64,000 bases of DNA from Terriglobia bacterium. GTDB taxonomy: Bacteria; Acidobacteriota; Terriglobia; Terriglobales; Acidobacteriaceae. A program made the translations under genes and the position numbers. Location of the stretch: NCBI GenBank assembly GCA_020073495.1, contig JAIQFD010000003.1, positions 1 to 64,000 on the forward strand, read 5' to 3'. Positions 17,801-52,439 of the stretch are shown here, piece after piece. The first letter of the stretch is position 1. Every line of letters begins with the position of its first letter. Under the pieces are notes generated by a model. That model saw only the letters and a program-made list of their open reading frames with translations, searched no databases and was not told where the DNA came from.

Positions 17801-17827
17801 AAAAGAATCGCAAACGAGGAGATGGAG

Positions 17828-18457: not shown

Positions 18458-18468
18458 GTGGGTGAGCT

Positions 18469-20073: not shown

Positions 20074-20111
20074 TGAGATCGTCTAAAAGAGAACGGACGG
20101 GGAGCTAGAAA

Positions 20112-21692: not shown

Positions 21693-21695
21693 GAC

Positions 21696-22649
21696 ATGTA
21701 CAAGAACTTTTTTGGCCTGCGGGCCAACCCGTTCAACGTGAATCCCGACCCGCGTTACCTGTACCTGACGCGGGCCACGCACGAGGCCCTGGCCTGCCTG
21801 ACCTACGGCATCCAGAGCCGCAAGGGGTTCGTGCTGCTGACGGGCGAAGTCGGGACGGGCAAGACGACGCTGCTGAACAAGCTGCTGGACTGGCTGCACC
21901 GGCAGCGGGTCTCGACGGCGTTCATCTTCAACCCGCGCCTGAACGTGACCCAGTTCTTCGACTTCATGATGGCGGACTTCGGCATCCCCTGCGAGTCTCA
22001 GCTCAAGAGCCAGGTACTGCTCAAGCTGAACCACTGGCTGCTGGAGCGCTACCGAGTCGGGGAAACGGCGGTGCTTGTGGTGGACGAAGCGCAAAACCTT
22101 TCGCCCCAGGTGCTAGAGGAGATCCGTCTGCTGACCAATCTGGAGACGACGTCGGAGAAACTCCTGCAGATCGTGCTGTGCGGCCAGCCCGAGCTGGAGA
22201 TGAAACTGCGCCGCCCGGAGCTGCGGCAGCTGCGCCAGCGCATCACGTTGCGCTGCAAGACGCACCCGCTCACGGATGAAGAGACATCGCAATACGTCGC
22301 GCAGCGGCTGAAGATCGCGGGCTCGAACGGCCACGTGATCTTCACGCCCGACGCCGTGGACACGATCCAGAGGTACTCGCGGGGAATCCCGCGCGTCATC
22401 AACCTGCTCTGCGAGCACACGCTGATCAGCGCGTTCGTGGACCAGCAGAAACAGATCAAGGGCGACCGGGTGGAAGAGGTCGCCAAGGAATTCGAGTTGG
22501 ATGTTGTGGATCCGACGGCGCCTGGGGGTGAGGACCTGGGCCTGAAGGAAGCCGTGCAGAGCCTGCATGAAGCGGCAGAACGCTTGCGGGAAGTACAGGC
22601 CCAGGCGGCAGCCGTACCCAGGAAAGGAACGTATGAGCCGAATTCATGA
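21696..22649 (+). CDS. XrtA-associated ExeA-like ATPase
   Basis: 317 aa. Starts MYKNFFGLRANPFNVNPDPR, the signature opening of the ExeA/XrtA-associated ATPase family. Walker A GEVGTGKTT lies at about residues 49-57 and Walker B AVLVVDEAQN near 125; sensor-like QIVLCGQPELEMKL and the C-terminal IPRVINLLCEHTLI are typical. Cytoplasmic AAA+ ATPase, always encoded beside the chain-length protein and kinase in XrtA loci; its exact role in export is not known. 3 bp after the chain-length gene; its last 17 bases overlap the kinase gene. Confidence 0.9.
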   Translation: MYKNFFGLRANPFNVNPDPRYLYLTRATHEALACLTYGIQSRKGFVLLTGEVGTGKTTLLNKLLDWLHRQRVSTAFIFNPRLNVTQFFDFMMADFGIPCESQLKSQVLLKLNHWLLERYRVGETAVLVVDEAQNLSPQVLEEIRLLTNLETTSEKLLQIVLCGQPELEMKLRRPELRQLRQRITLRCKTHPLTDEETSQYVAQRLKIAGSNGHVIFTPDAVDTIQRYSRGIPRVINLLCEHTLISAFVDQQKQIKGDRVEEVAKEFELDVVDPTAPGGEDLGLKEAVQSLHEAAERLREVQAQAAAVPRKGTYEPNS

Positions 22650-23604
22650 AGCATTGAAGAAGGCAGAACAGGATCGGGCCCAGGCGGGAGGAGCGGGGGC
22701 CGCGCAGGCGCCGTCGATCGAGGCGCCCATTGAGTCGCTGGCCGCGCCCGTGGATGATCTGGCCCGCGAAACCGTCCCCGCCGTACTGCCGGCCGCCGTG
22801 CAGACGGCGCTGGCGGAGATGACGGGGTTCGGACAGCTCTCGTCCGACGACCTGCACGCCAAGTGCCGCATGGGGGACTGGAAGCCCGACAAGGCCAAGA
22901 TGCTTTTCTTCGATCGCAAGAACAACCAGATGGTGGTGGGGTCGGAGGAATTCCGGACCTTGCGCTCCAAACTGTACCAGGTGCGTGCCAAGCAGACATT
23001 GCGCACGGTGCTGGTCTCGAGTGCCCTGCCTGGCGAAGGGAAATCGTTCGTCGCGGCCAATCTGGCGCAGGTGATAGTCCGGCAAAGCGGGCGCAAGGCG
23101 CTTCTGGTCGACGCCGACCTGCGTTGGTCGCGTCTGCACGAATACCTAGGAACGGCGATCACGCCCGGGCTCACCGAGTACCTGCGCGGCGCGGCGACCG
23201 AGTTCGAGGTCATCCAGCGCGGCCCGCTCGACAACCTGTATTTCATCGCCGGGGGCACACCGGCGCAGCAGCCTGCCGAACTTATCGGCAATGGCCGGCT
23301 GAGGGTCCTGCTGGAGAAGATGGCCACGACGTTCGACTGGGTCATCGTCGACTCGCCGCCGATCGTGCCCGTCTCCGACGCCGCCGTCATGGCCGAGATG
23401 TGCGACGGCGTGCTCATGGTGGTGCAGGCGGAGGTCACGCCGCTGGAGATGGCGCAGAAGGCGCGCCTGGAGTTCCACAACAAGCCGCTGCTGGGGGTGG
23501 TGCTGAACCAGGTCGAGGCCAAGAGGTCGTACAGCAGCTACTACTACTACTACGGTGGCTACGGAAAAGATCGCAAGAAGCGGCAGGAGAAGGGGAAGAA
23601 GTAA
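22633..23604 (+). CDS. XrtA-associated tyrosine autokinase (BY-kinase)
   Basis: 323 aa. The start MSRIHEALKKAEQDR at 22633 matches the usual N-terminus and follows AGGAAAGGAAC. Walker A ALPGEGKSFVAANLAQ, Walker A' ALLVDADLRWSRLH and Walker B FDWVIVDSPP are all present. The C-terminus is tyrosine-rich (RSYSSYYYYYGGYG) then basic, giving the autophosphorylation cluster. Cytoplasmic kinase that cycles with the Wzz-like protein to control EPS polymerisation and export. Overlaps the ATPase gene. Confidence 0.92.
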   Translation: MSRIHEALKKAEQDRAQAGGAGAAQAPSIEAPIESLAAPVDDLARETVPAVLPAAVQTALAEMTGFGQLSSDDLHAKCRMGDWKPDKAKMLFFDRKNNQMVVGSEEFRTLRSKLYQVRAKQTLRTVLVSSALPGEGKSFVAANLAQVIVRQSGRKALLVDADLRWSRLHEYLGTAITPGLTEYLRGAATEFEVIQRGPLDNLYFIAGGTPAQQPAELIGNGRLRVLLEKMATTFDWVIVDSPPIVPVSDAAVMAEMCDGVLMVVQAEVTPLEMAQKARLEFHNKPLLGVVLNQVEAKRSYSSYYYYYGGYGKDRKKRQEKGKK

Positions 23605-23616
23605 GGGGACGAATCG

Positions 23617-24990
23617 TTGGTACGCCTGTTCCATGTTTACTACCCGATGCGGACGGTGGTGCTGTTCGCGGGCGAAGCTCTGCTCGTGATGCTGTCGTTC
23701 GTGATCGCGACCTTTGCGATCTTCCGCCAGGATGCGTTGCTGATCCTCAACTACGAGGGAGGGCTCTACAAGATTGCAGGCGTCACCGTGGTGGCTTTGC
23801 TTTGTTCCCATTACTTCGACCTGTACGAAACGCAAAGACTGGCCTCCAAGAGCGAGATTTATTTCCGCCTGCTGGTAGTGCTGGGCGTGCTCTCGTTCCT
23901 GCTTGCGGGGACGGAATATCTATTCCCGAAGCTGGTGCTGGAGAACGGGATCTCCCTGCTGGGCCTGTTCATCTTGACCGGGCTTCTCCTGTTGTGGCGG
24001 GCAGGATACGTGTGGCTGGTGCGCCAGCCGTTCCTGCGCGAGCGGGTGTACGTGATGGGCGGCGGGGAGCGCGCCGACCGCCTGGTCGAAGCGCTACGCA
24101 ACCAGCCGGAGCTGGGCATGGACGTGGTGGGCTGGGCGGGAGCCGTGGGCAACGGCTCGTTAAGCCGAGAGGAGATTGGCCAGATGCTGCTCAACGCCCG
24201 CCACAAACAGCCGGTGGATCGGGTCATCGTTGCCATGGGCGACCGGCGCGGACGGATGCCGGTGCGGGAATTGCTCGACCTGCGGCTCTCGGGCGTGAAA
24301 GTCGAAGACGCGACCTCGGTGCTGGAGAAGGTTTCCGGCAAGATCGAGGTGGACGATCTCCAGCCCAGCTGGCTGATCTTCTCCGACGGCTTCCGCATCA
24401 ACCATACGTTCCTGGTGGTGAAGCGCTTGATCTCGATCGTGGCCGGGATCGCCGTCTCGCTGGTGTTCCTGCCGCTGCTCCCGTTGGTCGCACTCGCGGT
24501 CAAGTTGTCGTCGCCGGGACCGATCTTTTACGGCCAGAAGAGAGTGGGCTTCCACGGCAAGGTCTTCACCTGCTGGAAATTCCGCACCATGCTCCAAGAC
24601 GCTGAGGCCAACGGCGCACAGTGGGCCACGGGCGACGACCCCCGTATCACGACGGTCGGCAAAATCCTGCGCAAGCTGCGGCTCGACGAGATCCCGCAGC
24701 TCTGGAACGTGCTGAGGGGAGAGATGGGGTTCGTCGGACCACGCCCGGAGCGGCCGGAATTCGTGGATTGGCTGAGCAAGGAGATCCCCTACTACAACCT
24801 GCGGCACATCGTCCCGCCGGGACTCACGGGTTGGGCGCAGGTCTCCTACGAGTACGGCGCTTCACTGGAAGAATCGAAGGAAAAGCTGCGCTACGACCTC
24901 TACTACATCAAGAATATCGCGCCCATGCTCGACTTGCTGATCGTGTTCATGACCATCAAGATCGTGCTGCTGGGACGGGGGAGCCGGTGA
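23617..24990 (+). CDS. undecaprenyl-phosphate sugar-phosphate transferase (XrtA-type)
   Basis: 457 aa. Starts at a TTG (23617) with AAGGGGAC upstream; the next in-frame ATG (23647) lacks a ribosome site and would trim the first segment. Four to five N-terminal membrane segments and a CoA-binding-like domain (YVMGGGERADRLVEALRNQP) precede the bacterial sugar transferase domain. In that domain KRLISIVAGIAVSLVFLPLL is the anchoring hairpin, followed by SSPGPIFYGQKRVGFHGK, FRTM, LRKLRLDEIPQLWNVLRGEM and GFVGPRPERPEF. It transfers a sugar-1-phosphate to undecaprenyl phosphate to start the EPS repeat unit. The sugar specificity cannot be read from sequence. Confidence 0.92.
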   Translation: MVRLFHVYYPMRTVVLFAGEALLVMLSFVIATFAIFRQDALLILNYEGGLYKIAGVTVVALLCSHYFDLYETQRLASKSEIYFRLLVVLGVLSFLLAGTEYLFPKLVLENGISLLGLFILTGLLLLWRAGYVWLVRQPFLRERVYVMGGGERADRLVEALRNQPELGMDVVGWAGAVGNGSLSREEIGQMLLNARHKQPVDRVIVAMGDRRGRMPVRELLDLRLSGVKVEDATSVLEKVSGKIEVDDLQPSWLIFSDGFRINHTFLVVKRLISIVAGIAVSLVFLPLLPLVALAVKLSSPGPIFYGQKRVGFHGKVFTCWKFRTMLQDAEANGAQWATGDDPRITTVGKILRKLRLDEIPQLWNVLRGEMGFVGPRPERPEFVDWLSKEIPYYNLRHIVPPGLTGWAQVSYEYGASLEESKEKLRYDLYYIKNIAPMLDLLIVFMTIKIVLLGRGSR

Positions 24991-39666: not shown

Positions 39667-40644
39667 TTATCGGGAAGCCTTGCCTCCCGCCGCGGCCGTC
39701 ACGGCAGCTTCCTGCCGGTACCACTCCACCGTGCGGCGCAGGCCTTCCTCGAAATCGACCAGCACGCGGTAGCCCAGATGCTTCTCAGCGAGCGATATAT
39801 CGGCCAGCGAATGTTTGATGTCGCCTTCCCGGGCCGCTGCGTAGGCGGCCTGTCCGGTGTATCCGGTCAGCTTCTTCAGAATGCCGAACGTCTCATTGAG
39901 GCTGGCGCGCTTGCCAACGGCGATGTTAAACGTGCATCCCGCGACCGCCGAGGCCGGAGCCGTGCAGGCCAGCAGATTGGCGGAGACGGCGTTGTCGATG
40001 TAGGTGAAGTCGCGGCTCTGTTCCCCGTCTCCGTAGATGGTCGGCTGCCTGCCCTCGAGCATCGCGGGGATGAACTTCGCGAGAACGCCGGAGTATTGCG
40101 ATGACGGATCCTGCCGGGGACCGAAGATGTTGAAGTAGCGCAACGACACCGTTTCCAGCCCATACACGCGGAAGAACGAAGCCATGTAGTGTTCGGCGGC
40201 GAGCTTGGCGACGGCGTACGGGGAGATGGGATTGGGCAGCATGTCCTCGCGCTTGGGGAGTGTGGGCGTGTCCCCATAGGCCGACGACGACGCCGCGTAG
40301 ACGACCCTCTTCACTCCCGCCTCGCGCGCAGCCACGAGCACGTTCAGGCTTCCGTCGACGTTCGCCTGGTTGCTGGCCACGGGATCCTCGACCGAGCGAG
40401 GGACCGACGCCAGCGCACCCTGGTGGAAAACGTAATCGACCCCACGGCAGGCATCCCGCATGGCACCCAGGTCCACGAGGTCGGCGCGGCGGAAGTCGAT
40501 CCGGTCACGGATGGAAGCGATGTTCTCGAGTCTCCCGGTCGAAAGGTTATCCACACCCCGCACCCGCTCACCCTTCGCCACCAGCGCATGGGCCAGCGAA
40601 GAGCCGATGAAACCGGCGATTCCCGTGATCAGATAAAAAGCCAT
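39667..40644 (-). CDS. NAD-dependent sugar-nucleotide epimerase (WbpP/GalE-like SDR)
   Basis: 325 aa extended SDR. NAD-binding GIAGFIGSSLAHAL, VVYAASSSAYGDTP (catalytic Ser/Thr region), YAVAKLAAEHYM (YxxxK), RYFNIFGPRQDPSSQYSGVL, and YGDGEQSRDFTYIDN. The NIFGPRQDPSSQYSGVLAKF stretch is typical of UDP-GlcNAc(A)/UDP-glucuronate 4-epimerases. Probably converts a UDP-gluco sugar to the galacto form. Starts 48 bp after the carrier-protein stop. Confidence 0.9.
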   Translation of the reverse strand: MAFYLITGIAGFIGSSLAHALVAKGERVRGVDNLSTGRLENIASIRDRIDFRRADLVDLGAMRDACRGVDYVFHQGALASVPRSVEDPVASNQANVDGSLNVLVAAREAGVKRVVYAASSSAYGDTPTLPKREDMLPNPISPYAVAKLAAEHYMASFFRVYGLETVSLRYFNIFGPRQDPSSQYSGVLAKFIPAMLEGRQPTIYGDGEQSRDFTYIDNAVSANLLACTAPASAVAGCTFNIAVGKRASLNETFGILKKLTGYTGQAAYAAAREGDIKHSLADISLAEKHLGYRVLVDFEEGLRRTVEWYRQEAAVTAAAGGKASR

Positions 40645-40692: not shown

Positions 40693-40950
40693 CTACCGAG
40701 TGCGCGGCTTGCCCACGCGCTGTGCGGTGGCGATCATCTGCCGCACCGTGTCCATGTCCTTTGCCTGCACCTTGCCGGCGGGGATCCGCATGTGAGTCAC
40801 GTCCTCGAGCTTGGCCAGGATATCGACCAGGGCAAGAGAGTCGATCAGCCCGGAGGAGACCAGCGCAGTCTCTTCGCCGATGGTCACGCCGGGGCGGCGG
40901 ATGATCTCTTTCAGGATGTAATCCACGATCTGCTGCGCTTGTTCGGTCAT
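40693..40950 (-). CDS. acyl carrier protein (DltC-like position)
   Basis: 85 aa; the start at 40950 overlaps the ligase stop as ATGA. Single four-helix carrier domain with the phosphopantetheine attachment Ser38 in SSGLIDSLALVDILAKLED. DSL is the standard attachment motif, and the DS(L/M/F)xxVxLL context resembles DltC and D-alanyl carrier proteins as well as ordinary ACPs. Would carry the acyl group activated by the AMP ligase (40947-42680) to the membrane acyltransferase. Not the housekeeping ACP: there are no fab genes nearby. Confidence 0.88.
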   Translation of the reverse strand: MTEQAQQIVDYILKEIIRRPGVTIGEETALVSSGLIDSLALVDILAKLEDVTHMRIPAGKVQAKDMDTVRQMIATAQRVGKPRTR

Positions 40951-42680
40951 AGGCCGGGTCCCGCGGCATTCGACTGCAATTCCGGGTGCTCTGCAATGAG
41001 TTTTTCGCGCGTGGTGGAGCGCGCCGGCTTCCCGGCCGTGCTCTTCACCACCCACTTCGGCGGCTTGAGGTAGATGCGGCGCGCGACCACGGCCAGCTCG
41101 CCGGTGATCGCCGTCTTCAGCTCGCGCTCGATGCGCGCGGCTTCGGCGAGATCTTCTTCCCGGTTCACTTCCGCCGCCACCACGATGTCCTCGGTGCCCA
41201 GCTCCGGGTTGTAGGCGCCGAACGCAACCACGCGCCCGTCGTGGATGGCAGGATGGCTGGATACGATCTCTTCCACATCCTGTGGGTAAATGTTCTCGCC
41301 GGCCACGATGATCAGGTCCTTCTTGCGGCCGACCACGTAGACTTCGCCCTCGAGCGCGAATCCAAGGTCGCCCGACCAGTACCAGCCGTCCTGCAGCGCC
41401 TTCTCGGTGAGGTCGGGACGGTTGTAGTAGCCAGTGAGCAAGGAGTCGCTGCGGATGAGGATCTCTCCGATCCCTCCCTCCGGCAGCGGCTTGCCGCTGT
41501 CGGAGACCGCGCGGACGGCGCAGCCCGGGATGCACTTGCCCGATGACACGAAGCACATCGCTCCCTGGGTGCTGTCCGCGACCTGGACGGCCCGGCGCTC
41601 TTTGCGGACCGCGTCGGCGTCCACCCAGATCCGTTTCGGACCGGCGTCCGCGCCGATGCCCGATTGCGTGACCGCGAACACGGTCTCCGCCATCGCGTAC
41701 GAGGCCTGCAGGACGTGCGGCTGAAGCTTGCAGCCGGCATAGGCGGCTCGGAATTCGTCCATGCTCGACCCGCGTACCGGCTCCGAGCAGTTGATCAACA
41801 TGCGCAGCGAGGAAAGATCGAAATCCTGGCGGTCCGCCGGACGGACGCGCCGCGCGAGGAACTGCAAGGTGAAGTTGGGCGTCCAGGCCAGCGTGCATTT
41901 GTACTTTGTGATGATCTCCAGCATGGACCCAGGCTGCATGACCCAGTCGGTCGGCGACTGCATCACGATGGGCAGGTGGCAGACCATGGGCAGCATGAAG
42001 CAGGCGATCAGGCCCATGTCGTGGTACAGCGGCAGCCAGCTGTAGATGCAGTCATTGGAGGTCAGTCGCAGCGCCGGCGAGAGGTGGTTCAAGTGCAGGA
42101 GCACCGCCGCGTGCGACAGAGCCACGCCTTTCTGCAGTCCGGTGGTGCCGGCGGAGTGCTGGATGAAGGCGACGCTGTCCGGAGCGGCATCGAGCGGCTT
42201 GAAGCCTGCGGGCGGCGCGGGCATCTGCGCCTTCAGGTGCACCACCTGGGCGTCGTCCTTGAGGGCCACGTGTTCGAGGAGTTCGTCTGGGAATTCGTCG
42301 TCGAGAACGACTAGCCTCGCCTTCAGGTTGCCGGTGACACCGGCCAGGCCGAAGCGGTACTTGGCGGGATCGACCTTGAAGTTGGGATAAGCCAGGATCG
42401 CGGGGATCGCACCCAGGCACAGGGCACCGGCAAAGGCGGTCATGAGCGGGATGCCCTGCGGCATCACCAGGATGACGCGATCGCCCTGGCGTAGCCCGCG
42501 CTGCTGCAAGTATGCCGCCTGGCCAAGCGCCAGGCGCACGAACTCGCCGAAGGTGACGGTCTGCACGTCGTCCTCGCTCTTCCACATGGTCACGAACGGC
42601 TGGTCGGGCGGGGCGGCCAGCAGAGCTTCCGGCAACGTGCGATACGTTATCGGATACCGCGGGCGGGGAGCTTCGGTCAT
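40947..42680 (-). CDS. fatty-acyl-AMP ligase-like adenylating enzyme
   Basis: 577 aa ANL-superfamily enzyme. P-loop HSAGTTGLQKG (175-185), WLPLYHDMGL (215-224, a hallmark shared with FAALs), LINCSEPVRGSSMDEF, ASYAMAETVFAVTQ, SGDLGFALEGEVYVVGRKKD and ENIYPQDVEEIV, then a C-terminal lid with a candidate catalytic Lys in VVKSTAGKPAR. FAAL-type enzymes form acyl-adenylates and pass the acyl chain to a carrier protein rather than CoA, which fits the adjacent ACP gene. Whether the FAAL-specific insertion is present cannot be settled by eye; an acyl-CoA ligase is the alternative. ATGA overlaps on both sides. Confidence 0.85.
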   Translation of the reverse strand: MTEAPRPRYPITYRTLPEALLAAPPDQPFVTMWKSEDDVQTVTFGEFVRLALGQAAYLQQRGLRQGDRVILVMPQGIPLMTAFAGALCLGAIPAILAYPNFKVDPAKYRFGLAGVTGNLKARLVVLDDEFPDELLEHVALKDDAQVVHLKAQMPAPPAGFKPLDAAPDSVAFIQHSAGTTGLQKGVALSHAAVLLHLNHLSPALRLTSNDCIYSWLPLYHDMGLIACFMLPMVCHLPIVMQSPTDWVMQPGSMLEIITKYKCTLAWTPNFTLQFLARRVRPADRQDFDLSSLRMLINCSEPVRGSSMDEFRAAYAGCKLQPHVLQASYAMAETVFAVTQSGIGADAGPKRIWVDADAVRKERRAVQVADSTQGAMCFVSSGKCIPGCAVRAVSDSGKPLPEGGIGEILIRSDSLLTGYYNRPDLTEKALQDGWYWSGDLGFALEGEVYVVGRKKDLIIVAGENIYPQDVEEIVSSHPAIHDGRVVAFGAYNPELGTEDIVVAAEVNREEDLAEAARIERELKTAITGELAVVARRIYLKPPKWVVKSTAGKPARSTTREKLIAEHPELQSNAAGPGL

Positions 42681-43792
42681 CGCGTCACCACGTCCTCATG
42701 ACTTCTGTTCACCCCGGCGCTGGCCGCATTCACATAGAGCGCCACCCCGGAGTGGTGGAGCGCCGGTCCGAGGCCTTCCGCCAGACGCTCCGCCATGAGC
42801 GCCGCACCCGCGTCGGTAAAGTGCTCGAAGTCGGCGAAATACTTGCGGTCCGGGGGGATCTCGCGTGCGATGTCGATCACCGCGACATCCTGGGCCGCGG
42901 CGGCATCGCGCATGGCCTGGTTCATGCGCCGTTCCATGTCGAGGAATCCCTCTTCCTTGAGCTTGGGATGGAACTTGCGCCAAGAGATGAGAAGATCCCG
43001 ATCCGGGGTTCGGTCATCGCCGAAGGCGGTCGCGTGCGTGACGACCACTGGCTCGACGCCGTGCGCGCGCAGGGTCGAGAGCAGTTCCGAGAGATCATCG
43101 CCGAACCGCTTCACGTCCCCATCGGGCAGGCGCTCGATCGCCGCTCGTGCCCCGAGCGAATGCTCGATCTGCCACTGGCGCAACCAGGTCTGGACTGCGT
43201 CCGGCAGGACAGCCTTGGCGACGTTTCGCACGCGCTCCCCCAGCCGCCATTCGAAGCTGGGCGGCGGCAGGACCTTGACCACGCGTTGCGACTGCTTTGG
43301 CGGCATGTCGATGTAGAAGCTGGGCGTCGTGTAGATCAGCGCGACCCGGGGCTGGATGCGCTCGACGATCTCGGGTACCCGCAGCGTCGCCGTGGGCAGC
43401 GTGAGACCCGGGTACGCGACATTCACGACCTGGAATGCGGGCCGGCCGGCGCGGGCATTGAGTTCGCGCTCTAACTGCCGCGGAAATTCGTGGTCTTCCG
43501 ATTCGTAAAGCCCAAAGGTCTCCGACGCCCCGAAGCACACGATGTGAACGCGGTCCTTCTCGACCCGCGGACCGCGGTAACCGAACTCGTTGAGCTGCCA
43601 CTTGCGGTAGCGCGCGTTGGGTTTACCCCGTTTGCCGAGCCGGTCGTTCTCGTACAGATTCTCGTCGCTATATACCCCGGACACCGGCGCGCCAAAAGTG
43701 ACATGATCGTCGAGACGCGCACACAGCTCGAGCACGAGCACGAAGATCACCGCGCCGAGCGCTACCCGGAGTAGTTTGGCCGCTTTCATCAT
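42677..43792 (-). CDS. membrane-anchored SGNH-type hydrolase/transferase (DltD/AlgJ-like role)
   Basis: 371 aa from ATG 43792, which overlaps the MBOAT stop (ATGA). One N-terminal membrane segment (LLRVALGAVIFVLVLELCA) puts the domain in the periplasm. SGNH features: Ser90 in VCFGASETFG (block I, GAS rather than GDS), VVNVAYPGLTLPTATLRV (block II), and Asp321/His324 in ADFEHFTDAG (block V). The triad looks intact. In dlt, alg and O-acetylation systems the SGNH partner receives the acyl group from the MBOAT protein and transfers it to the polymer. 46-residue motifs around Tyr/Asn (SDENLYENDRLGKRGKPNAR, LNEFGYRGP) match SGNH proteins of EPS loci. Confidence 0.82.
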   Translation of the reverse strand: MMKAAKLLRVALGAVIFVLVLELCARLDDHVTFGAPVSGVYSDENLYENDRLGKRGKPNARYRKWQLNEFGYRGPRVEKDRVHIVCFGASETFGLYESEDHEFPRQLERELNARAGRPAFQVVNVAYPGLTLPTATLRVPEIVERIQPRVALIYTTPSFYIDMPPKQSQRVVKVLPPPSFEWRLGERVRNVAKAVLPDAVQTWLRQWQIEHSLGARAAIERLPDGDVKRFGDDLSELLSTLRAHGVEPVVVTHATAFGDDRTPDRDLLISWRKFHPKLKEEGFLDMERRMNQAMRDAAAAQDVAVIDIAREIPPDRKYFADFEHFTDAGAALMAERLAEGLGPALHHSGVALYVNAASAGVNRSHEDVVTR

Positions 43793-45186
43793 CAGAACTG
43801 GGAATAAATGAACGCTTGCGGCTGTGCCGCCCGGAAAACGACCAGGTACAGGGCCACGGCGTAGCAGGCATAGCGCACTTCCAGCGGCAGCCACGAGAGC
43901 ACAGCCTGCTCCTTGTCCCTGCGTGCCGAGAGCGCCGCACAGACGAAGTAGCCCGCGACAAGCGCTGCGGTCAGCAGGTAGAGCTCTGCCGGCAACACCG
44001 GGGAACGGTAGCTGCCCGGGGTGAATACAGTAGCAAACATCCGCGCTGCCTGTGTGACGCCCTGCGCCCGGAACCAGGTCCATCCCAGGCACATGGCGGC
44101 GAACGTGACCAGCCACGAAACTGCCGTCTGGGCCGCTCCTTCCCAGCGGAAATCAAATTGCCGCTGGAGCTGCTGCCACAGGCGGTGCAGGACCAGCAGG
44201 ACACCGTGGTACGCGCCCCAGATGACGAACAAGGGCGCACCCTTGTGCCACACGCCAAAGACGATCATCGAAAACAGCAGCGCGCCATTCCGCCACCAGG
44301 TCTCGCGACGCATCGCCGCCACCGGAAGAAAGAGATAATCGCGGATCCAGAAAGAAAGCGACATGTGCCAGCGGGTCCAGAACACCGAAGGCGAGGCCGA
44401 CAGATACGGGCGATCGAAGTTCTCCTGGACGCGAACACCGAGCAGCCGCGCTGCGCCGATCGCGATGTGCGAGTATCCGGCGAAATCAAAAAAGAGTTGG
44501 AAGCCATACCCGATGGCGAGCAGCCAGACGTCGGGCGCGGCCAGCGGGGCAGTCGAGTCGAAGGCCGCGTTGATGCCGTGGTTCGGGGTCAATCCTGAGC
44601 CCAGCAGCTGCGCCAGCGCCATCATCAGAGCGCCCAGCCAGATGCGCTGCGCGGCGGAGTGAATGTCGTCGCGGGAGAGATCGGCGCGCTCGCGAAGCTG
44701 CGGCAGGATTTCCGGCAGGCGGCAGATCGGCCCCGAAAGCACCGTCGGCGCGAAACTCATGTACAGCAGAAATTCGGGCAGCGTGGGATCCAGTTCTTCC
44801 TCGCGGTAGAGGTCGAAGAGGTAGCTCAGGGCCTGAAACGTCCAGAACGACATTCCGACCGGCAGGACGATCCGGGCCAGCTCCGACTCCGCCGAGATCT
44901 GCTGGGCAATCGCGGGAAGGTACTTGAAGACGCCCAGGAGCGCTACGTTGAACGCGATCCCGAGCCAGAGCCGCCCGGACGTCGGGCTGCGCCGCAAGGC
45001 CTTGCCCAGAGCGAAATTCACCACCGCGCTGCCCACCAGCACGGCCAGAAACCAGGGCCCCCAGCTGGCATAAAAGGCAAGACTCACCGCCAGCAGCAGG
45101 ATCCGGCGTGAACGCACCCCCAGATGCCTGGCCAGCAGCGACGTGAGCAGCAGTCCAGCTACATACACCACCAGCCTGGCCGTCAT
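43792..45186 (-). CDS. MBOAT family membrane acyltransferase (DltB/AlgI-like)
   Basis: 464 aa from ATG 45186 (the open frame extends to 45261 without a better start). About ten or more membrane segments. MBOAT signatures: FFDFAGYSHIAIGAARLLGV, FWTRWHMSLSFWIRDYLFLP (His274), and SMIVFGVWHKGAPLFVIWGA (His314, the conserved MBOAT His) with His327 nearby. Moves acyl groups from a cytoplasmic carrier across the inner membrane to periplasmic acceptors. First gene of the four-gene cassette MBOAT-SGNH-ligase-ACP. A possible sigma-70 type promoter lies at 45233-45261. Confidence 0.9.
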   Translation of the reverse strand: MTARLVVYVAGLLLTSLLARHLGVRSRRILLLAVSLAFYASWGPWFLAVLVGSAVVNFALGKALRRSPTSGRLWLGIAFNVALLGVFKYLPAIAQQISAESELARIVLPVGMSFWTFQALSYLFDLYREEELDPTLPEFLLYMSFAPTVLSGPICRLPEILPQLRERADLSRDDIHSAAQRIWLGALMMALAQLLGSGLTPNHGINAAFDSTAPLAAPDVWLLAIGYGFQLFFDFAGYSHIAIGAARLLGVRVQENFDRPYLSASPSVFWTRWHMSLSFWIRDYLFLPVAAMRRETWWRNGALLFSMIVFGVWHKGAPLFVIWGAYHGVLLVLHRLWQQLQRQFDFRWEGAAQTAVSWLVTFAAMCLGWTWFRAQGVTQAARMFATVFTPGSYRSPVLPAELYLLTAALVAGYFVCAALSARRDKEQAVLSWLPLEVRYACYAVALYLVVFRAAQPQAFIYSQF

Positions 45187-45327: not shown

Positions 45328-46194
45328 TCAGTGGGAAAACAAGGTCAACAAGGTGACCTCGGGGGGAACGTTGAAGCGCATCGGCACCACAATGGTCCCG
45401 ATGCCTCGGTTCGTGTAGAGGTGCAGGTTCCCGACCCGGTACAGGCCCCGCGGGTACCTGCGCGAAAGCGGAGGATAATACAGCGCACCCACGAAAGGCG
45501 CCCGGATCTGTCCCCCGTGGGAATGCCCGGAGAGCTGAAGGTCGACCGGGTACGCCTTGGCGTGGTCGGCGAAATCAGGCTCGTGGGCCAGCAGGATCGT
45601 GAACTCATTCCGCGGGATGCCGGCGAGCGTGTGGTCGAGGTCGGCGTGGGCGTACAGGACGTCATCCACGCCAGCCACCCAGAGCCGCGCGCCATCGCGT
45701 TCGATCGCCGCCGCGTTGTTCCTCACGATCTGTATTCGGTGCGCCCGGATGATCTGGGTCAGGGCCCAGGGATCGACACTGACGTCGTGATTGCCGAAGC
45801 AGGCGAAGATGCCGAGGGGAGCCCGGATCCCGGAGAGCAGCCGCGAGCAGTGGTCGGCATTCTGGAACTGCTTGACGGGACGGCCCCACAGCGCCGCCGT
45901 GATGAAATCGCCCGTGATCACCGCCAGATCCGGCTCGAGGGCGTTGCATCGCTCGACCGCGTTGCGGATCTCGCGTTCGCCGGTGTAGGGGCCGAAGTGG
46001 AGGTCGCTGAGCTGCGCGACCTTCAGGCCGTGGAACGCCTCCGGGAGGCGCGGCGTGAGGAGCGGCACGCGCTCCACCGTGATCTCGTACGGTTCGGCGA
46101 GCGCCGCATATCCGCCCAGGCCGACGACGGCCGCCGCGCCGACACCGGCGGCGGCGCGAAGGAATTGCCGGCGGGTTGGCCGAGAGCTGTGCAC
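45328..46194 (-). CDS. Tat-exported metallophosphoesterase
   Basis: 288 aa from a GTG at 46194, 7 nt after the upstream stop. This start places a twin-arginine signal at the N-terminus (SRPTRRQFLRAAAGVGAAAV). Calcineurin-like metallophosphoesterase motifs: LSDLHFG (DxH), VITGDFI (GDxx), CFGNHDVS (GNHD) and LSGHSHGGQ (GHxH). Closest in layout to the YkuE/YaeI type phosphodiesterases that act on the outer face of the membrane. Substrate unknown; undecaprenyl- or glycolipid-linked phosphodiesters are possible. Follows the 618-aa membrane protein closely. Confidence 0.85.
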   Translation of the reverse strand: MHSSRPTRRQFLRAAAGVGAAAVVGLGGYAALAEPYEITVERVPLLTPRLPEAFHGLKVAQLSDLHFGPYTGEREIRNAVERCNALEPDLAVITGDFITAALWGRPVKQFQNADHCSRLLSGIRAPLGIFACFGNHDVSVDPWALTQIIRAHRIQIVRNNAAAIERDGARLWVAGVDDVLYAHADLDHTLAGIPRNEFTILLAHEPDFADHAKAYPVDLQLSGHSHGGQIRAPFVGALYYPPLSRRYPRGLYRVGNLHLYTNRGIGTIVVPMRFNVPPEVTLLTLFSH

Positions 46195-46201
46195 CGAGTC
46201 T

Positions 46202-48058
46202 CTACAGTGAAGGCCGCGCTCTACACCAGCGGACGCGTAGGCGGCCAATGTCAGTTTCCCGCACGACCTGCAGGTACCTCCGCAGGCGGTCGGGAGCGAA
46301 CGTGGGCGAGGCCACGTTGTCGACAATGATCACACGATCGTACGCGGCGAACAGGTTCAGGGCTTCTCCGTCCCCCGATTCCAGCCTGCGGAGAACGGGG
46401 ACCAGCGTCTCCCGCATGGAAGCAAGCGCCGCCCGACGTTCGGGGCCGGCGAGCAACAGCCGCTCCCTGACCTGTGCGAAGAGCCACTGCGCCGGCTTGG
46501 CGTCTTCGTCGGGCCGGGCGAGTATCGTGTCGACGGAAGCGCTGTCTCGCCCGCTGAAGTAGAGGTAAACGGCCTGCCGGTATCGCTGGAACTCCGCCTT
46601 GTTCGCAGGGGAAAGAGCCAATTCTGCATTCGAGCAATAGACCAAGCGGCCCTCGCTGATCAAAGGCAACCAGCAGCTCACGTCGTCCACCGAATCTGCC
46701 GCGGAGAGGACGATATCCCGCGGCCCCAGTTGCAGAGAAGAGAACAGTTTCGCGGTGGCTGCACTGGCCCGATTGAAGCTGACGTACTTGCGGTACCCGC
46801 CGGCGGCCGCCAGCGCGCCATGCACCATGATCAGCAGCAACACTGGGGTCAGGACCCAGGCTGCCCGTAGCCTGCGCTCCCGTGCGACCCGGACCGCTGC
46901 GCCGGCCAGATAGATCACAAGCAGCCCCAGCACGGTGTGAACGAAGTAGAGATCGTGGTCGGTGACTTGCAGCATGGGACTGACGAACAGATCCGCGAAA
47001 TAAAGGAGCAGGTTAGCTACACCGAGCGAGACCAGGACCCCCTTGCTTTCCCTGCGCTCATCGTCTGGGACGATCGCACAGCCGATGGTGGCTGCAGCCA
47101 GCATGGCCAGCATCTTGGCGTGGCCTCGGAGGATGTAGGGAAGACGGGCGAGCGAGATGGACAGGATCGGCTCACGCACGGCCACCGCAGCGGCCGCATG
47201 AGAGGCGCCGCTCAGCAGCAGGTAGGCGCCGTCCAGTACCCCACATGCCAGCGCGAAGCCCAGGATCTCCCTCCATGAGAGATCGAGGCGGCGCGCGATC
47301 CATGCCAGGGCCACGACGCAGGCGGTGGTGCCGGCCATCAGCAGGGTCGTGTATGGAAAACACGTGAATGCCGCCCACTGGATCAGCGCCATCAGCGCCC
47401 ACGCGTAGCGCTTGTGAGCGCGTAATGCCTCGATCTGGAGCCCAACGTATAGGAGCAGGAACGGAATGGCCACCTGAGGGAAGAAGGTGCGGGTGTACGG
47501 GAGTCGCACCAGCCGGAAGCCGTCCAGAGACACGTGCATCCAGGCGGAAGCGCTCGCGGGCAGGAGAGTCACGTCGAAGAGCAGCAGAAAAGCCACGCCG
47601 ACGGCGAGGAGCAACGACGAGCGAGGCAGAATCTTGTCGAGCACGTAGAGCGTCCCGCAGGCGATAAGCACCGCCCAGCCTGCGGACCACAGCACCAGCG
47701 TAAGCGGCCAGTTCCCTCCCAGCAGATTCCGCACGATATTGAATGCTATGAACCCCGAACGGAACTTCCAATAGGCCAGCGCACTGAGGGGGACCTCCAC
47801 GCCGTACCAGGGATTCACCAGGGAGTCAGCGGTGGAAGCGTGCAGCCGGCTGATGTTCAGGTAGAAGTAAAGGTCGGGGCCGAACAGAGGGGGGATCTTC
47901 GACGACTCCCCGCGCGCCGCTGTCACCACGTACGGCGCGGCGTAGAGCAGCGCAACGACCACCACGGTAGCCGGCAGCACCAACTTCCGGATCGACTGGA
48001 TGAAACTGTCTTTGGCGCCCAGGCGACTGGGTGTCCGCGCCATCTCCACCCTAGGCAT
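46202..48058 (-). CDS. polytopic membrane protein, GT-C-like
   Basis: 618 aa. At least ten hydrophobic segments between residues 28 and 420 and a soluble C-terminal domain (~440-618) with RDIVLSAADSVDDVSCWLP and YDRVIIVDNVAS. An early periplasmic loop holds an acidic GPDLYFYLNISRL, a position where GT-C enzymes carry catalytic Asp/Glu. No definite family is recognised. The gene directly follows a DPM1-like GT2 (48051-49046, 8-bp overlap), which often makes the polyprenyl-phosphate sugar donor used by GT-C enzymes, so a lipid-linked glycosyltransferase is a reasonable inference. The start could also be the ATG at 48043. Confidence 0.6.
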   Translation of the reverse strand: MPRVEMARTPSRLGAKDSFIQSIRKLVLPATVVVVALLYAAPYVVTAARGESSKIPPLFGPDLYFYLNISRLHASTADSLVNPWYGVEVPLSALAYWKFRSGFIAFNIVRNLLGGNWPLTLVLWSAGWAVLIACGTLYVLDKILPRSSLLLAVGVAFLLLFDVTLLPASASAWMHVSLDGFRLVRLPYTRTFFPQVAIPFLLLYVGLQIEALRAHKRYAWALMALIQWAAFTCFPYTTLLMAGTTACVVALAWIARRLDLSWREILGFALACGVLDGAYLLLSGASHAAAAVAVREPILSISLARLPYILRGHAKMLAMLAAATIGCAIVPDDERRESKGVLVSLGVANLLLYFADLFVSPMLQVTDHDLYFVHTVLGLLVIYLAGAAVRVARERRLRAAWVLTPVLLLIMVHGALAAAGGYRKYVSFNRASAATAKLFSSLQLGPRDIVLSAADSVDDVSCWLPLISEGRLVYCSNAELALSPANKAEFQRYRQAVYLYFSGRDSASVDTILARPDEDAKPAQWLFAQVRERLLLAGPERRAALASMRETLVPVLRRLESGDGEALNLFAAYDRVIIVDNVASPTFAPDRLRRYLQVVRETDIGRLRVRWCRARPSL

Positions 48059-49046
48059 GGCTGGTCTGCCCGGATGCTGCGGGACGTTCCACTGTCTCCT
48101 CGATCAGGTAACGCGGCCGGCGGCGCGACTCGTCCAGCGCGCGCCAGAGGTACTCGCCAAGAATCCCCAGCATAAGCATCTGGACGCCGCCGATCAGCAG
48201 GACCATGACCATCAACGACGACCAGCCTTGCGGCGGATGTCCAGTGAGCGCATTGGCGACGACGAACATGGCATAGGCGAATCCGACGACAGCGATGAGA
48301 AAACCGAAATAGGACATGAGGCGGATCGGCAGATACGTGAACGAGGTGATGGAATCGACCGCCAGCTTGAGCTTCTTCTCCAGGGTCCAGCCGGAGCTGC
48401 CGTGCAGCCGGGCTTTCTTGGTGTAAAACACCGTTCCCTGGCGGAAGCCCATCCAAGTGATCAGGGCCAGAATGCTCACGTTGCTCTCGTTAAAAGCGCG
48501 GAAACCGTCGAGCACGCGCCGATCCATGAGGAAGAAATCAGCTCCCATCGCCGGCATCTCTTTCATGCCGACGATGTGACGCATGATGGCGTAATAAGCG
48601 CGCGAAAAGCCCACCGTGCTGGCGGTCTCGCCCTCCCGTCGTTCACGAGCGGCCCATACTACCTGCACGCCTTCGTGCCACTTGGCGATCAGGTCGGGGA
48701 TGACTTCGGGGGGGTCCTGAAGATCAGCGGCCAGGATGACCGCACAATCGCCACGCGCCTGGTGAAGACCGCAAGTGATGGCCGTGTGCGACCCAAAATT
48801 GCGGGCGAAACGGATACCTCGAACGCGTGGGTCCCGCTGTGCGATCTCGCGCACGACGGCAAACGTCTCGTCGGCCGAATGGTCGTCCACCACCACCCAC
48901 TCCCAGCGGAACCCCTGGCCGTCGAGCGAACGGCACAGCTCTTCGTAGAGCGCGGGGAGGTTGCGCGACTCGTTGTATGCCGGCGTGACCACGGTCAGAA
49001 GGAAGTCGGCGGGCGGTGTCTGGCGCGCAGCATCAACGGGAGGCAC
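48051..49046 (-). CDS. GT2 polyprenyl-phosphate glycosyltransferase (GtrB/ArnC-like)
   Basis: 331 aa. GT-A domain with TVVTPAYNESRNLPALYEEL, VVVDDHSADETF, AVILAADLQDPPEVIP (DxDxxDPP acidic site of this family) and MGADFFLMDRRVLDGF. Two C-terminal membrane segments (YFGFLIAVVGFAYAMFVVAN; LMVMVLLIGGVQMLMLGIL) then EYLWRALDESRRRPRYLIEE, all as in GtrB/ArnC. Transfers a sugar from a nucleotide to undecaprenyl phosphate. Overlaps the genes on both sides. Confidence 0.92.
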   Translation of the reverse strand: MPPVDAARQTPPADFLLTVVTPAYNESRNLPALYEELCRSLDGQGFRWEWVVVDDHSADETFAVVREIAQRDPRVRGIRFARNFGSHTAITCGLHQARGDCAVILAADLQDPPEVIPDLIAKWHEGVQVVWAARERREGETASTVGFSRAYYAIMRHIVGMKEMPAMGADFFLMDRRVLDGFRAFNESNVSILALITWMGFRQGTVFYTKKARLHGSSGWTLEKKLKLAVDSITSFTYLPIRLMSYFGFLIAVVGFAYAMFVVANALTGHPPQGWSSLMVMVLLIGGVQMLMLGILGEYLWRALDESRRRPRYLIEETVERPAASGQTSHA

Positions 49047-51486
49047 GGGAAACTCGTTCCTCCTTCATGGATGTGGCCAGGGCCCGCAACAGGGCCTTCA
49101 CGACGCGCTCCGGATCACCCTCCGACATCTGCGGGTACAGCGGCAGAATGAGGCACTGGTCCTGCGCTTCCTCACTTTTCCGCAGCGGACCGCCGGCCCG
49201 CCATGGCTCGTGCGCGTACGCGGGTTCTCGGTGAGCGCACATGACGCCCCGTCGGGTGGAAATGCCGGCCTTCTGCATGGCATCCATGACGGTCGCCTGG
49301 TCGGCGCCCTGCGGCAGACGCACACAATAGCTCTGCCAGTTGGAGCGCGCATTCGAGGGCTCCGCAGGGGGAGTCACCTCAGTCCCGCGGAGCAGCTCAC
49401 GGTAGCGATCGGCCAGCGCCCGCCGGCGGGCGATCATTTCCGGCAAACGCCGCAATTGCTCGCGCCCGATGGCTGCCTGGATATCGGTCATGCGGTAGTT
49501 ATAGCCGAGCACCGGGTAGTGTTCCGCAGGCTGCTGCGACATCCCGTGCGAGCGCCAAAGACGGAACTGGCGGTCCCAGTCGCCGTTGGCGGTCACAATC
49601 ATGCCGCCGTCGCCCGTCGTGACCAGCTTGCGGGGATGGAAGGAGAAGCAGGCGACATCGCCATGCGGGCGGCCGATCTTCTGCCATTCGCCCTCCCAGA
49701 GTATCTCGCTCCCGATGGCGCAGGCGGCATCCTCGACGACAGCGATGCGGTGTTTGCGCGCAATGTGAAGAACCGCAGCCAGTTCGCACGGCATGCCCAT
49801 CTGGTGCACGCAAAGGATGGCGCGTGTGCGCGGCGTGATCGCAGCTTCGATCAGCTTGGGATCCAGGTTAAACGTATCTGGGTCGATATCCGCAAAGACA
49901 GGCACAGCGCCGCAATACCGGATCGAATTCGCGGTAGCGATGTAGGAGTGGCTGACGGTGATGACCTCGTCATCGGGCCGCACTCCGACCGCGAGGAGGG
50001 CCAGGTGCAGGGCGGTGGTGCCGCTGGAGACGGCGCATGCGTGGGGGGCGCCGACACGGGCCGCGAACTCGCGCTCGAATTGCGCAACCTGTGGTCCCTG
50101 CATCACCCAGCCGCTGCGGACCACGTTGGCCGCTGCTTCGGCTTCGTTGCCCGCCAGCACAGGCTTGGCGACCGCTATGACCGGCTCGCCGGCTGGGACC
50201 TCGTCCGGTTGTCCGATGCCGATGTAGTGGAGACTGGAGGCGCGGACCGACTCCGCCGGCCACAGGCGGCGCCCGTCGCAGACAACCCGCAGGCCTTGCG
50301 TGGCGAGCTGCTTGAAATCGAGGTTCGCATATTGCGGATGCGCGGTGTTGAGAATTATGACTTCCGGCGAGGGAGATTGTTCGAGGCTGCCGGGAATGAA
50401 GCCGTGGTCGCGGATCTCGGCCTCGCTGTACATGGGATCGTGCACACGAACGTCGGCCCCGCGCTTCCGCAGCTCCGGCGCCAGGAGGAACGCAGGGGAG
50501 AGAATGTGCTCCTTCACGGACGGCCGAAAGCCGAGGCCGAGAATCAGCACCCGGCGGCCAGCCAGTGGACCCAGAATGCGCTCGATCCGGTTTATGGCAT
50601 GCGTAGCTTGACCGTCGTTGATGCGCCGGCTCCGGTCGGCCAGGATGAACGGGATCCCGCGGCGCTCGCCGTCCCGGATCAGGAAGTACGGGTAGATCGG
50701 AGTGCAGTGGCCACCCACCCCAATGCCGGGGAGATGGATCGCAGCTTCGCCGTCGGTGTTGGCGGCCTCGATCACCGGACCCAGGTCGATGCCCAGGGCC
50801 TCGGAGTAGCGCGCCAATTCGTTGGCGAGCGCGATGTTCACATCGCGGTAGAGCATGCCCGCAAGCTTGACCAGTTCGGCGGCTTCGAGCGATCCGACAT
50901 TCATCACCTTGGCGCCAAGATAGTGGCCATAGAAATCCGCGGCGCGCTCCGCCGCCTGCGGAGTGATGCCCCCCACCACTTTGGGTGTACTGGCCAGATG
51001 CCGCAGGACGAACTGGCTCTTGACCCGCTCCGGTGAATAAGCCAGGTCGAAATCGCGCCCGGCTTTCAGCCCGCTGCTCTCGAGGATAGGAAGAAAGCGG
51101 TGCCGCGTGGTACCGACGGGCACCGTGGTCTCATACGAGACCATCAACCCGCGATGCATATTGGCCGCGATCTGTTGCGACACGGAGCACAGTGCGCCCA
51201 GGTCGGCATCGTTGTCCGCCGTGAGCAGCGCCGGAACGATCACAACAACGACCTCGCTCGCAGCCACCGAGCCACCGATGTCAGTGGTGGCGCGAAGCCG
51301 GCCATTCGCAATCGCAGCGGAGAGCAGCTCGGGGACGCCCGGTTCGTCGATCGAGCAGCGGCCGGCATTGATCGCATCGACGACGTCCTGCCGGATATCG
51401 CAAGCGCTCACCGTCGCCCCGCGGGTTGCGAACTGGCAGGCCAGGGGAAGCCCCATTTTCCCCGCCCCGATCACGGCGACCTTCAT
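49033..51486 (-). CDS. fusion: nucleotide-sugar 6-dehydrogenase + DegT-type aminotransferase
   Basis: 817 aa from ATG 51486 (ATGA overlap with the upstream epimerase). Residues 1 to about 425 are a complete UDP-sugar dehydrogenase: VIGAGKMGLPLA, YETTVPVGTT, YSPERVKSQF, the catalytic Cys261 in VGGHCTPIYPYFL, and GLGFRPSVKEH. Residues about 440-800 are a complete DegT/DnrJ aminotransferase: AVSSGTTALHLALLAVGVRP, VVEDAACAIGSE, and Schiff-base Lys620 in FSFHPRKLVTTGDGG. No stop, gap or frameshift is visible at the junction (about 50150-50200). The two activities are normally separate proteins; here one chain would oxidise a UDP-GlcNAc-type sugar and aminate a keto sugar. Both active sites look intact. 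The dehydrogenase is WbpA/WecC-like. Confidence 0.87.
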   Translation of the reverse strand: MKVAVIGAGKMGLPLACQFATRGATVSACDIRQDVVDAINAGRCSIDEPGVPELLSAAIANGRLRATTDIGGSVAASEVVVVIVPALLTADNDADLGALCSVSQQIAANMHRGLMVSYETTVPVGTTRHRFLPILESSGLKAGRDFDLAYSPERVKSQFVLRHLASTPKVVGGITPQAAERAADFYGHYLGAKVMNVGSLEAAELVKLAGMLYRDVNIALANELARYSEALGIDLGPVIEAANTDGEAAIHLPGIGVGGHCTPIYPYFLIRDGERRGIPFILADRSRRINDGQATHAINRIERILGPLAGRRVLILGLGFRPSVKEHILSPAFLLAPELRKRGADVRVHDPMYSEAEIRDHGFIPGSLEQSPSPEVIILNTAHPQYANLDFKQLATQGLRVVCDGRRLWPAESVRASSLHYIGIGQPDEVPAGEPVIAVAKPVLAGNEAEAAANVVRSGWVMQGPQVAQFEREFAARVGAPHACAVSSGTTALHLALLAVGVRPDDEVITVSHSYIATANSIRYCGAVPVFADIDPDTFNLDPKLIEAAITPRTRAILCVHQMGMPCELAAVLHIARKHRIAVVEDAACAIGSEILWEGEWQKIGRPHGDVACFSFHPRKLVTTGDGGMIVTANGDWDRQFRLWRSHGMSQQPAEHYPVLGYNYRMTDIQAAIGREQLRRLPEMIARRRALADRYRELLRGTEVTPPAEPSNARSNWQSYCVRLPQGADQATVMDAMQKAGISTRRGVMCAHREPAYAHEPWRAGGPLRKSEEAQDQCLILPLYPQMSEGDPERVVKALLRALATSMKEERVSRASR

Positions 51487-52439
51487 TTCGCGACTCCCTT
51501 TGCCTTGCAATACCAGTTGAGGGTCTGCTGCAGGCCTTGCTCCAGGTCCACCTTAGGCTCGAAGCCGAGCAGCTGCCGCGCGCGTTCGATGACGGGCACG
51601 CGAGCACGCACTTCGGCGCGTCCCATGGACTGGAACTCGATGCGAGTGCCGGGGACGAGCCGAGCGATGCGGCGCGCCAGGCCGAGCGTTGTCTCGATCT
51701 CGCTCGGGTTGCCGACATTGAAGACGCCTGCCGCCGACTCCGGTTTGACGAGGATGCGCTCCACCGCCTCGACCATGTCGCTGACGTAGCACCATGCCCG
51801 GATCGGACTGCCATCCCCATACACCGTCAATGGACGGCCTTCGATGGCAGCACGGCAGAAATTGCTGATTGCGCCCTCGCCGGTCTGCCGCGGGCCGTAA
51901 ATATTGAACGGCCGCACCACGGTCCCGATGAATCCATACGTCTCACCGTAACGGAGCGTCAGATGCTCAGTCGCAAGCTTGCTGGTGGCGTACACCCAGC
52001 GCCGCTCCGACGATGGCCCGATGCCGCATGGCATCTCCTCCGTCACCCACATCGCATTCGAGCCGAAGATCTCGCTCGTGGAAAAGTCGATGAAGTGCTT
52101 GATCCCATGCCGGCGCGATTCTTCCAATACATTGATCGTGCCAAGGATGTTGACTTGGAGTGTCTTGAGTGGCTCCTGGTAGTAGCTGGAGACGCCGGCG
52201 ATCGCGGCAAGATGGACGACCGTATCTACGCCACGCTCGAACGCGCGCGTGATGGAAGCGGGATCCAGCGTGTCTCCGGCAAGGAAGGTGACGCGAGGAT
52301 GGTCCTTGAGCTGCGGCGCGAGCGACAGCGAGTCGCGCCGGCCATTATCGAAAAGGATGACGTCAGCGCTGCCGGAAAGGCGCTCGGCGAGATGAGTGCC
52401 GATAAAGCCCGCGCCGCCAGTGATCAAAATACGTGCCAA
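51483..52439 (-). CDS. NAD-dependent sugar-nucleotide epimerase/dehydratase (SDR)
   Basis: 318 aa extended SDR. ILITGGAGFIGTHLAERL (NAD loop), HLAAIAGVSSYYQEPLKTLQ, FIDFSTSEIFGSNA (catalytic Ser), YATSKLATEHL (YxxxK), RPFNIYGPRQTGEGAISNF and YGDGSPIRAWCYVSD. Resembles UDP-glucuronate decarboxylase/dTDP-glucose dehydratase-like and 4-epimerase enzymes; the precise reaction cannot be assigned. Supplies a modified UDP or dTDP sugar. Upstream partner of the dehydrogenase-aminotransferase fusion. Confidence 0.86.
   Translation of the reverse strand: MARILITGGAGFIGTHLAERLSGSADVILFDNGRRDSLSLAPQLKDHPRVTFLAGDTLDPASITRAFERGVDTVVHLAAIAGVSSYYQEPLKTLQVNILGTINVLEESRRHGIKHFIDFSTSEIFGSNAMWVTEEMPCGIGPSSERRWVYATSKLATEHLTLRYGETYGFIGTVVRPFNIYGPRQTGEGAISNFCRAAIEGRPLTVYGDGSPIRAWCYVSDMVEAVERILVKPESAAGVFNVGNPSEIETTLGLARRIARLVPGTRIEFQSMGRAEVRARVPVIERARQLLGFEPKVDLEQGLQQTLNWYCKAKGVAK

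Follow-up and report, generated by a model that had tools for sequence, protein, structure and literature searches.

Two of the described systems closest to the locus considered here differ in their use of a carrier. The Dlt system of Gram-positive bacteria (dltXABCD) works with a carrier-loaded donor, whereas O-acetylation of the PatAB/AlgI type has no carrier; in both DltX and PatA, the tyrosine of an FXYXXF motif carries the acyl group to an SGNH enzyme (PMC12148441). According to the same 2025 paper on the MBOAT-SGNH mechanism, pathways outside Dlt do without a carrier, evidently since their donor is acyl-CoA (PMC12148441). Here we describe a four-gene cassette in a 64,000-nucleotide stretch of DNA from a Terriglobia soil bacterium of the family Acidobacteriaceae, phylum Acidobacteriota (contig JAIQFD010000003.1, positions 1 to 64,000; the whole stretch is called the window). 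The cassette probably encodes a Dlt-like, carrier-fed cell-envelope acylation system that combines a carrier loaded by a fatty-acyl-AMP ligase (FAAL), an MBOAT protein with a fused tyrosine shuttle, and an SGNH protein, the loader being exchangeable among relatives; in this genome, the group transferred would most likely be a fatty acid and the acceptor the XrtA exopolysaccharide (EPS).

The cassette and its components

The genes for the MBOAT protein, the SGNH protein, the AMP ligase and the carrier follow one another on the minus strand, at the positions given in the original prediction, which was made from the letters of the window:

43792..45186, minus strand: MBOAT acyltransferase, DltB-like, 464 aa (Pfam MBOAT 71.7 bits, cut-off 27)
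44287..44337, minus strand: cytoplasmic loop YLFLPVAAMRRETWWRN of the MBOAT protein, counterpart of DltB's DltC-docking helix, aligned to StDltB 302-317
44245..44247, minus strand: MBOAT catalytic His314, an invariant column among relatives
43795..43812, minus strand: acyl-shuttle motif FIYSQF (Tyr461, Phe464) at the C-terminal end of the MBOAT protein
42677..43792, minus strand: SGNH-family protein with an N-terminal membrane anchor, 371-372 aa (PF13472 39.4 bits, cut-off 32.9)
40947..42680, minus strand: FAAL-like loader, 577 aa (AMP-binding 172.8 bits)
41931..41957, minus strand: FAAL-specific helix SPTDWVMQP, ligase residues 242-250, aligned to RTQDFAMRP (R251-P259 of EcFAAL)
41547..41654, minus strand: FAAL-specific insertion, ligase residues about 343-378, found in FAALs including 3PBK
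40693..40950, minus strand: acyl carrier protein, 85 aa (PP-binding 25.8 bits, cut-off 20.8)

The ligase/SGNH (42680/42677) and carrier/ligase (40950/40947) junctions are ATGA overlaps. The original prediction had claimed such an overlap for every junction, but the MBOAT/SGNH junction is TGATGATG (TGATG), that is, a 1-nucleotide overlap or a 2-nucleotide gap. The key residues that it had called intact are so by direct reading: His314 of the MBOAT protein, the catalytic set Ser90, Asp321 and His324 of the SGNH protein (numbered from the start at 43792), Ser38 of the carrier and the P-loop of the ligase. It had overlooked two further features of the MBOAT protein, namely the C-terminal FxYxxF motif and the missing LGG of the cytoplasmic loop.

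The ligase is of the FAAL type and not of the CoA-ligase type. Three features set FAALs apart from CoA ligases (PMC8460268): an insertion, a specific helix where the CoA pocket is blocked, and prolines located at an alternative pocket. All three are present in the window ligase. By alignment, the insertion comprises about 25-30 residues, as in 3PBK, and P99 and P231 correspond to the guarding prolines P107 and P226 of EcFAAL; neither the insertion nor the full helix is seen in four other ligases encoded by this genome. The ligase contains the motifs HSAGTTGLQKG (P-loop region), WLPLYHDMGL and NCSEPVR and the A10 lysine, Lys551. Its top NCBIfam models are FAAL-type (PRK07768 and PRK09192, both under their cut-offs), and the closest solved structure by PDB match is the FAAL 3PBK. 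DltA is absent from its 25 best NCBIfam matches, in agreement with the earlier remark that the enzyme has no obvious D-alanine ligase profile. Because the loader is a FAAL, the acid loaded in the window cassette is, judging from the sequence, most likely fatty.

For the MBOAT protein, DltB is the best NCBIfam model (181.7 bits, under the cut-off of 375), the PDB sequence match (E 3e-39) and the top Foldseek match (E 5e-11) of a structure model with a pLDDT of 75.6. Tyr461 and the final Phe (xYxxF) are conserved in 43 of 43 MBOATs compared. The helix of DltB on which DltC docks includes M302, V305, I306, M309, K312 and R317 (PMC11035591), and its loop counterpart in the cassette MBOATs of the same family resembles FLPLAxxRREVWWRN. 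LGG occurs in this loop in none of the carrier-linked MBOATs compared, whereas it is present in the AlgI-type MBOATs of the order. The window genome has a second MBOAT (G000:C2:761581-762165; L001, L142), which is of the AlgI type, has the LGG loop and ends in FLYFQF; it adjoins a Wza-like export gene, and there is no carrier nearby. In the cassette carrier, the phosphopantetheine-site Ser38 lies in GLIDS and is invariant in an 18-row alignment. The DltC model scores this carrier at 27.4 bits against a cut-off of 68, and the DltC contact pattern (hydrophobic at Ser+1, acidic at Ser+5) is kept in all 18 carriers.

Co-conservation of the core and exchange of the loader

The four parts, whose conservation together was the original prediction's own test, are found together elsewhere. 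A ligase-first scan of the collection yielded 20 acidobacterial loci (57-66% identity), in which a carrier and an MBOAT gene adjoin the ligase wherever the contig is long enough. In a search independent of that scan, made with the carrier alone, 28 of the 300 family genomes contained it; among 397 genomes of the order, a profile search separated cassette carriers (E values below 1e-31) from all others (above 1e-14). We fetched 33 carrier loci, some from genomes that were also in the ligase-first scan, and found an MBOAT gene in 30 and an SGNH gene in 29 of them. Partners are missing near contig ends in L090, L105 and L132; L085 has no recognized SGNH gene, and L102 has neither MBOAT nor SGNH. 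Weaker carrier matches outside the cassettes (L136, L138, L139, L141 and L143-L145) have no MBOAT nearby. Because the carrier-first search recovers MBOAT so regularly, the four-part association is more than chance, and this co-conservation upholds the idea of a Dlt-like, carrier-fed MBOAT/SGNH cassette. The gene order of the window is not general: order and orientation are fluid in relatives, where the MBOAT gene is usually divergent from the FAAL-carrier pair.

The same counts bear on a rival view, in which the MBOAT and SGNH proteins are an ordinary acetyl-CoA-dependent O-acetylase and the FAAL and carrier belong to an unrelated lipid pathway, adjoining by chance or through common regulation. 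PatA, AlgI and similar pairs do use acyl-CoA and have the same C-terminal motif (PMC12148441). However, carrier and MBOAT stay together despite changes in loader and gene order, the loop has no LGG, and the nearest solved structure is DltB, which makes this view very unlikely.

The loader, by contrast, is not constant. Among the 33 carrier loci, it is a FAAL in 22, an adenylation enzyme resembling nonribosomal peptide synthetases (NRPS) or DltA in seven, an LnmK-type enzyme in one and an E1+E2 pair in one; for two loci, none was found. Two of the seven adenylation loaders were tested, and both pass the amino-acid adenylation model TIGR01733, with DltA as the second model. The LnmK-type acyltransferase/decarboxylase of L097 scores 122.7 bits with TIGR04098 (cut-off 100); the LnmK family makes a propionyl-carrier from methylmalonyl-CoA (PMC9396626). 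Directly upstream of the carrier, L091 (4637-8207) encodes two proteins of the pyruvate-dehydrogenase type, an E1 with fused alpha and beta parts and a lipoyl E2, apparently an acyl-carrier-forming 2-oxoacid dehydrogenase. Gene overlaps are 4 nucleotides each for E1/E2 and E2/carrier (L091), 8 nucleotides for LnmK/carrier (L097) and 4 nucleotides for FAAL/carrier (window). A tree of the MBOATs, with long deep branches and an uncertain root, joins the E1E2 locus to one of the FAAL loci (support 99) and places the LnmK locus as sister (95) to the adenylation clade (support 99). MBOAT and SGNH are retained in L093, and L084, a further and complete FAAL cassette of that genome, might work in trans.

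A cassette with a FAAL loader is what the window contains, as originally described, while the exchange of loaders among relatives had escaped notice. Since relatives retain the carrier-MBOAT-SGNH core and exchange the loader, the acyl group would be set by an interchangeable part. Small acyl groups are expected from the adenylation, LnmK and 2-oxoacid dehydrogenase loaders. Their association with related carriers and MBOATs, together with DltB being nearest to the window MBOAT, favors an alternative in which the same machine is loaded with a small or polar acid (hydroxy, amino or short branched) in the window too, with a change in charge or polarity like that of D-alanylation in place of lipidation. 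The insertion, the helix and the best matches of the window ligase point instead to fatty-acyl ligases and away from DltA and adenylation domains, and we consider a small acid unlikely here.

Three further families of the phylum (f23, f36 and f33) have distant contiguous cassettes. The arrangement is SGNH-MBOAT-carrier-FAAL in G554 (f36) and G440 (f23) and SGNH-MBOAT-FAAL-carrier in G607 (f33), where SGNH was called by motif reading in all three genomes and Pfam gave none for G554 and G440. G219 (L135), of the same family as the window, has FAAL-carrier-SGNH-MBOAT among polysaccharide genes. The MBOATs of G554, G440, G607 and G219 end in YIYQGF, FIYQGF, FVYFQF and FIYFQF, respectively. Also of this broad family are five loci in related genera (L175 6625-11521, L176, L177 6645-12101, L179 and L180) with a different, MBOAT-SGNH-SGNH-carrier-KAS III-like set, in which the MBOATs end in FVYGNF or an F(V/I)YGNF-like motif and have no LGG. 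The KAS III-like enzyme was read in L176, L177 and L180, and Pfam confirmed it in the first two of these; that it loads the carrier in these sets is our guess. We tentatively advance, as a serious possibility, that carrier-fed MBOAT/SGNH acylation forms a modular class of general occurrence, with at least four, perhaps five, unrelated loaders (FAAL, adenylation, LnmK, E1+E2 and perhaps KAS III), which in the window genome would lipidate an exopolysaccharide.

Many FAALs of the phylum have no MBOAT nearby, and a FAAL alone therefore does not predict a cassette. Loci L005-L008 were considered as further cassettes and rejected. L005, L006 and L008, from other Acidobacteriota, encode single proteins of ~1000 aa in which a carrier and a FAAL are joined to a PlsC-like acyltransferase domain and which seem to provide a one-protein route from fatty acid to glycerolipid; L007 is a shorter FAAL (692 aa). 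In L230 (2868-7558; family f37), an 864-aa MBOAT-like protein (a weak match) lies beside a carrier and a FAAL, and its active-site region differs (RRINIYWKDF).

Proposed transfer steps and acceptor

Carried over from work on Dlt and Pat, the steps of the proposed system would be as follows. (i) The FAAL would turn a free, most likely fatty, acid into acyl-AMP and would charge Ser38 of the carrier with it, in place of CoA. (ii) The cytoplasmic loop would serve as the docking site for the acyl-carrier, and (iii) the MBOAT protein would pass the acyl group via its pore to its own C-terminal Tyr461. (iv) From the acyl-tyrosine tail, the group would go to the periplasm-facing SGNH protein, at Ser90, and (v) this protein would esterify an extracytoplasmic acceptor, here most likely the XrtA exopolysaccharide itself or else its repeat unit.

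An exopolysaccharide acceptor, as first proposed, is suggested by location. The window cassette is embedded in an XrtA EPS cluster of roughly 40 kb, with glycosyltransferases, deacetylases, hexapeptide transferases and aminotransferases on both sides, and the EPS setting ascribed to it agrees with the exosortase and the XrtA export and polymer genes nearby:

15457-16218: XrtA exosortase (PF09721, 260 bits)
17822-24990: XrtA export, chain-length, ATPase, kinase and (polyprenyl-)glycosyltransferase genes (TIGR03027, 03007, 03015, 03018 and 03013)
39667..40644, minus strand: NAD-dependent sugar epimerase-like gene, 48 nucleotides downstream of the carrier (from position and translation)

The epimerase-like gene is probably on the cassette transcript. 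Upstream of the MBOAT gene and on the same strand lies a gene for a TAT-signal metallophosphoesterase (45328-46326), and an 825-aa open reading frame at 49033-51510 seems, from its translation, to encode a nucleotide-sugar dehydrogenase fused to a DegT/DnrJ-type aminotransferase.

The EPS setting does not extend to relatives in general. Those examined lie mostly elsewhere, and the cassette as a general part of XrtA loci was therefore rejected. This distribution, and the variety of the SGNH partners, some of which carry TPR repeats, speak for carrier-fed fatty acylation of another acceptor, such as a lipid, peptidoglycan, an outer-membrane glycan or a secreted protein, a reading that differs from ours in the acceptor alone. 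Set against the 40-kb cluster around the window cassette and the polysaccharide genes around that of G219, we regard it as possible but somewhat doubtful.

Further observations weigh against a FAAL-fed cassette that lipidates EPS. An EPS acceptor finds no support in most relatives, where the flanks looked at contain cytochrome, propeller or housekeeping genes; the sister species G001 has neither the carrier nor the ligase; and no loader was recognized near the carriers of L093 and L102. The range of FAALs is broad, and a short, hydroxy or branched acid could be loaded instead. Finally, the SGNH genes form several dissimilar subfamilies and not one orthologous family, which fits a change of acceptor yet weakens the case for a single mechanism.

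A last explanation takes the ligase and carrier to supply a small lipopeptide or polyketide-like product, pathways that are usually started by FAAL-carrier pairs (PMC11837247). No polyketide synthase (PKS) or NRPS gene was present among the window genes examined or the flanks read, and the conserved partner is the MBOAT/SGNH pair, which renders this explanation most improbable.

Comparison with known systems

If the proposed system operates as outlined, bacteria could alter their surface acyl group by swapping one gene, export of a fatty acid to a glycan could proceed without CoA, and the acyl group could be predicted from the loader sequence. Mutants of the carrier, the MBOAT protein and its tyrosine make the idea directly testable. 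A literature search on FAAL or acyl-AMP together with MBOAT and carrier found no such system described, which is a weak sign of novelty, as most subscription papers lay outside the search.

The cassette shares with Dlt a ligase, a carrier, an MBOAT protein and an SGNH protein and, by prediction, a carrier-loaded donor and a tyrosine shuttle. It differs from Dlt in that (i) its ligase is of the FAAL type and that of Dlt of the D-alanine type, (ii) its shuttle is fused to the MBOAT C-terminus, whereas that of Dlt is on DltX and DltB has no such end, and (iii) its host is a diderm and its loader is exchangeable among relatives. A separate DltX microprotein was not encountered, the motif sitting on the MBOAT protein, although no systematic DltX search was made. 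With PatAB/AlgI-type O-acetylation, the cassette shares an MBOAT protein with a catalytic His and a C-terminal FxYxxF, an SGNH partner with Ser/Asp/His, occurrence in diderms and, probably, extracytoplasmic glycans as targets. Those systems, however, use acyl-CoA and no carrier (PMC12148441), while the cassette carrier is co-conserved with MBOAT, and the LGG loop of AlgI-type MBOATs is lacking in cassette MBOATs.

Pairs of a FAAL and a stand-alone carrier resemble the window pair in the FAAL-specific insertion and helix and in the adjoining cognate carrier, but the reviewed pairs feed PKS/NRPS or lipid pathways (PMC11837247), whereas that of the window sits with MBOAT and SGNH. The ACP-FAAL-PlsC fusions likewise have a FAAL whose own carrier feeds an acyltransferase; as read from sequence, they are single proteins with a PlsC-like end and have no MBOAT or SGNH. 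Because two tested features of Dlt (DltA and a separate DltX) and the carrier-free feature of PatAB/AlgI do not hold for the cassette, it is best filed as a separate variant of MBOAT-SGNH envelope acylation, carrier-fed and with exchangeable loaders. Such cassettes unite the carrier of Dlt with the shuttle that PatAB/AlgI-type systems have fused to the MBOAT protein, and they exchange the loader.

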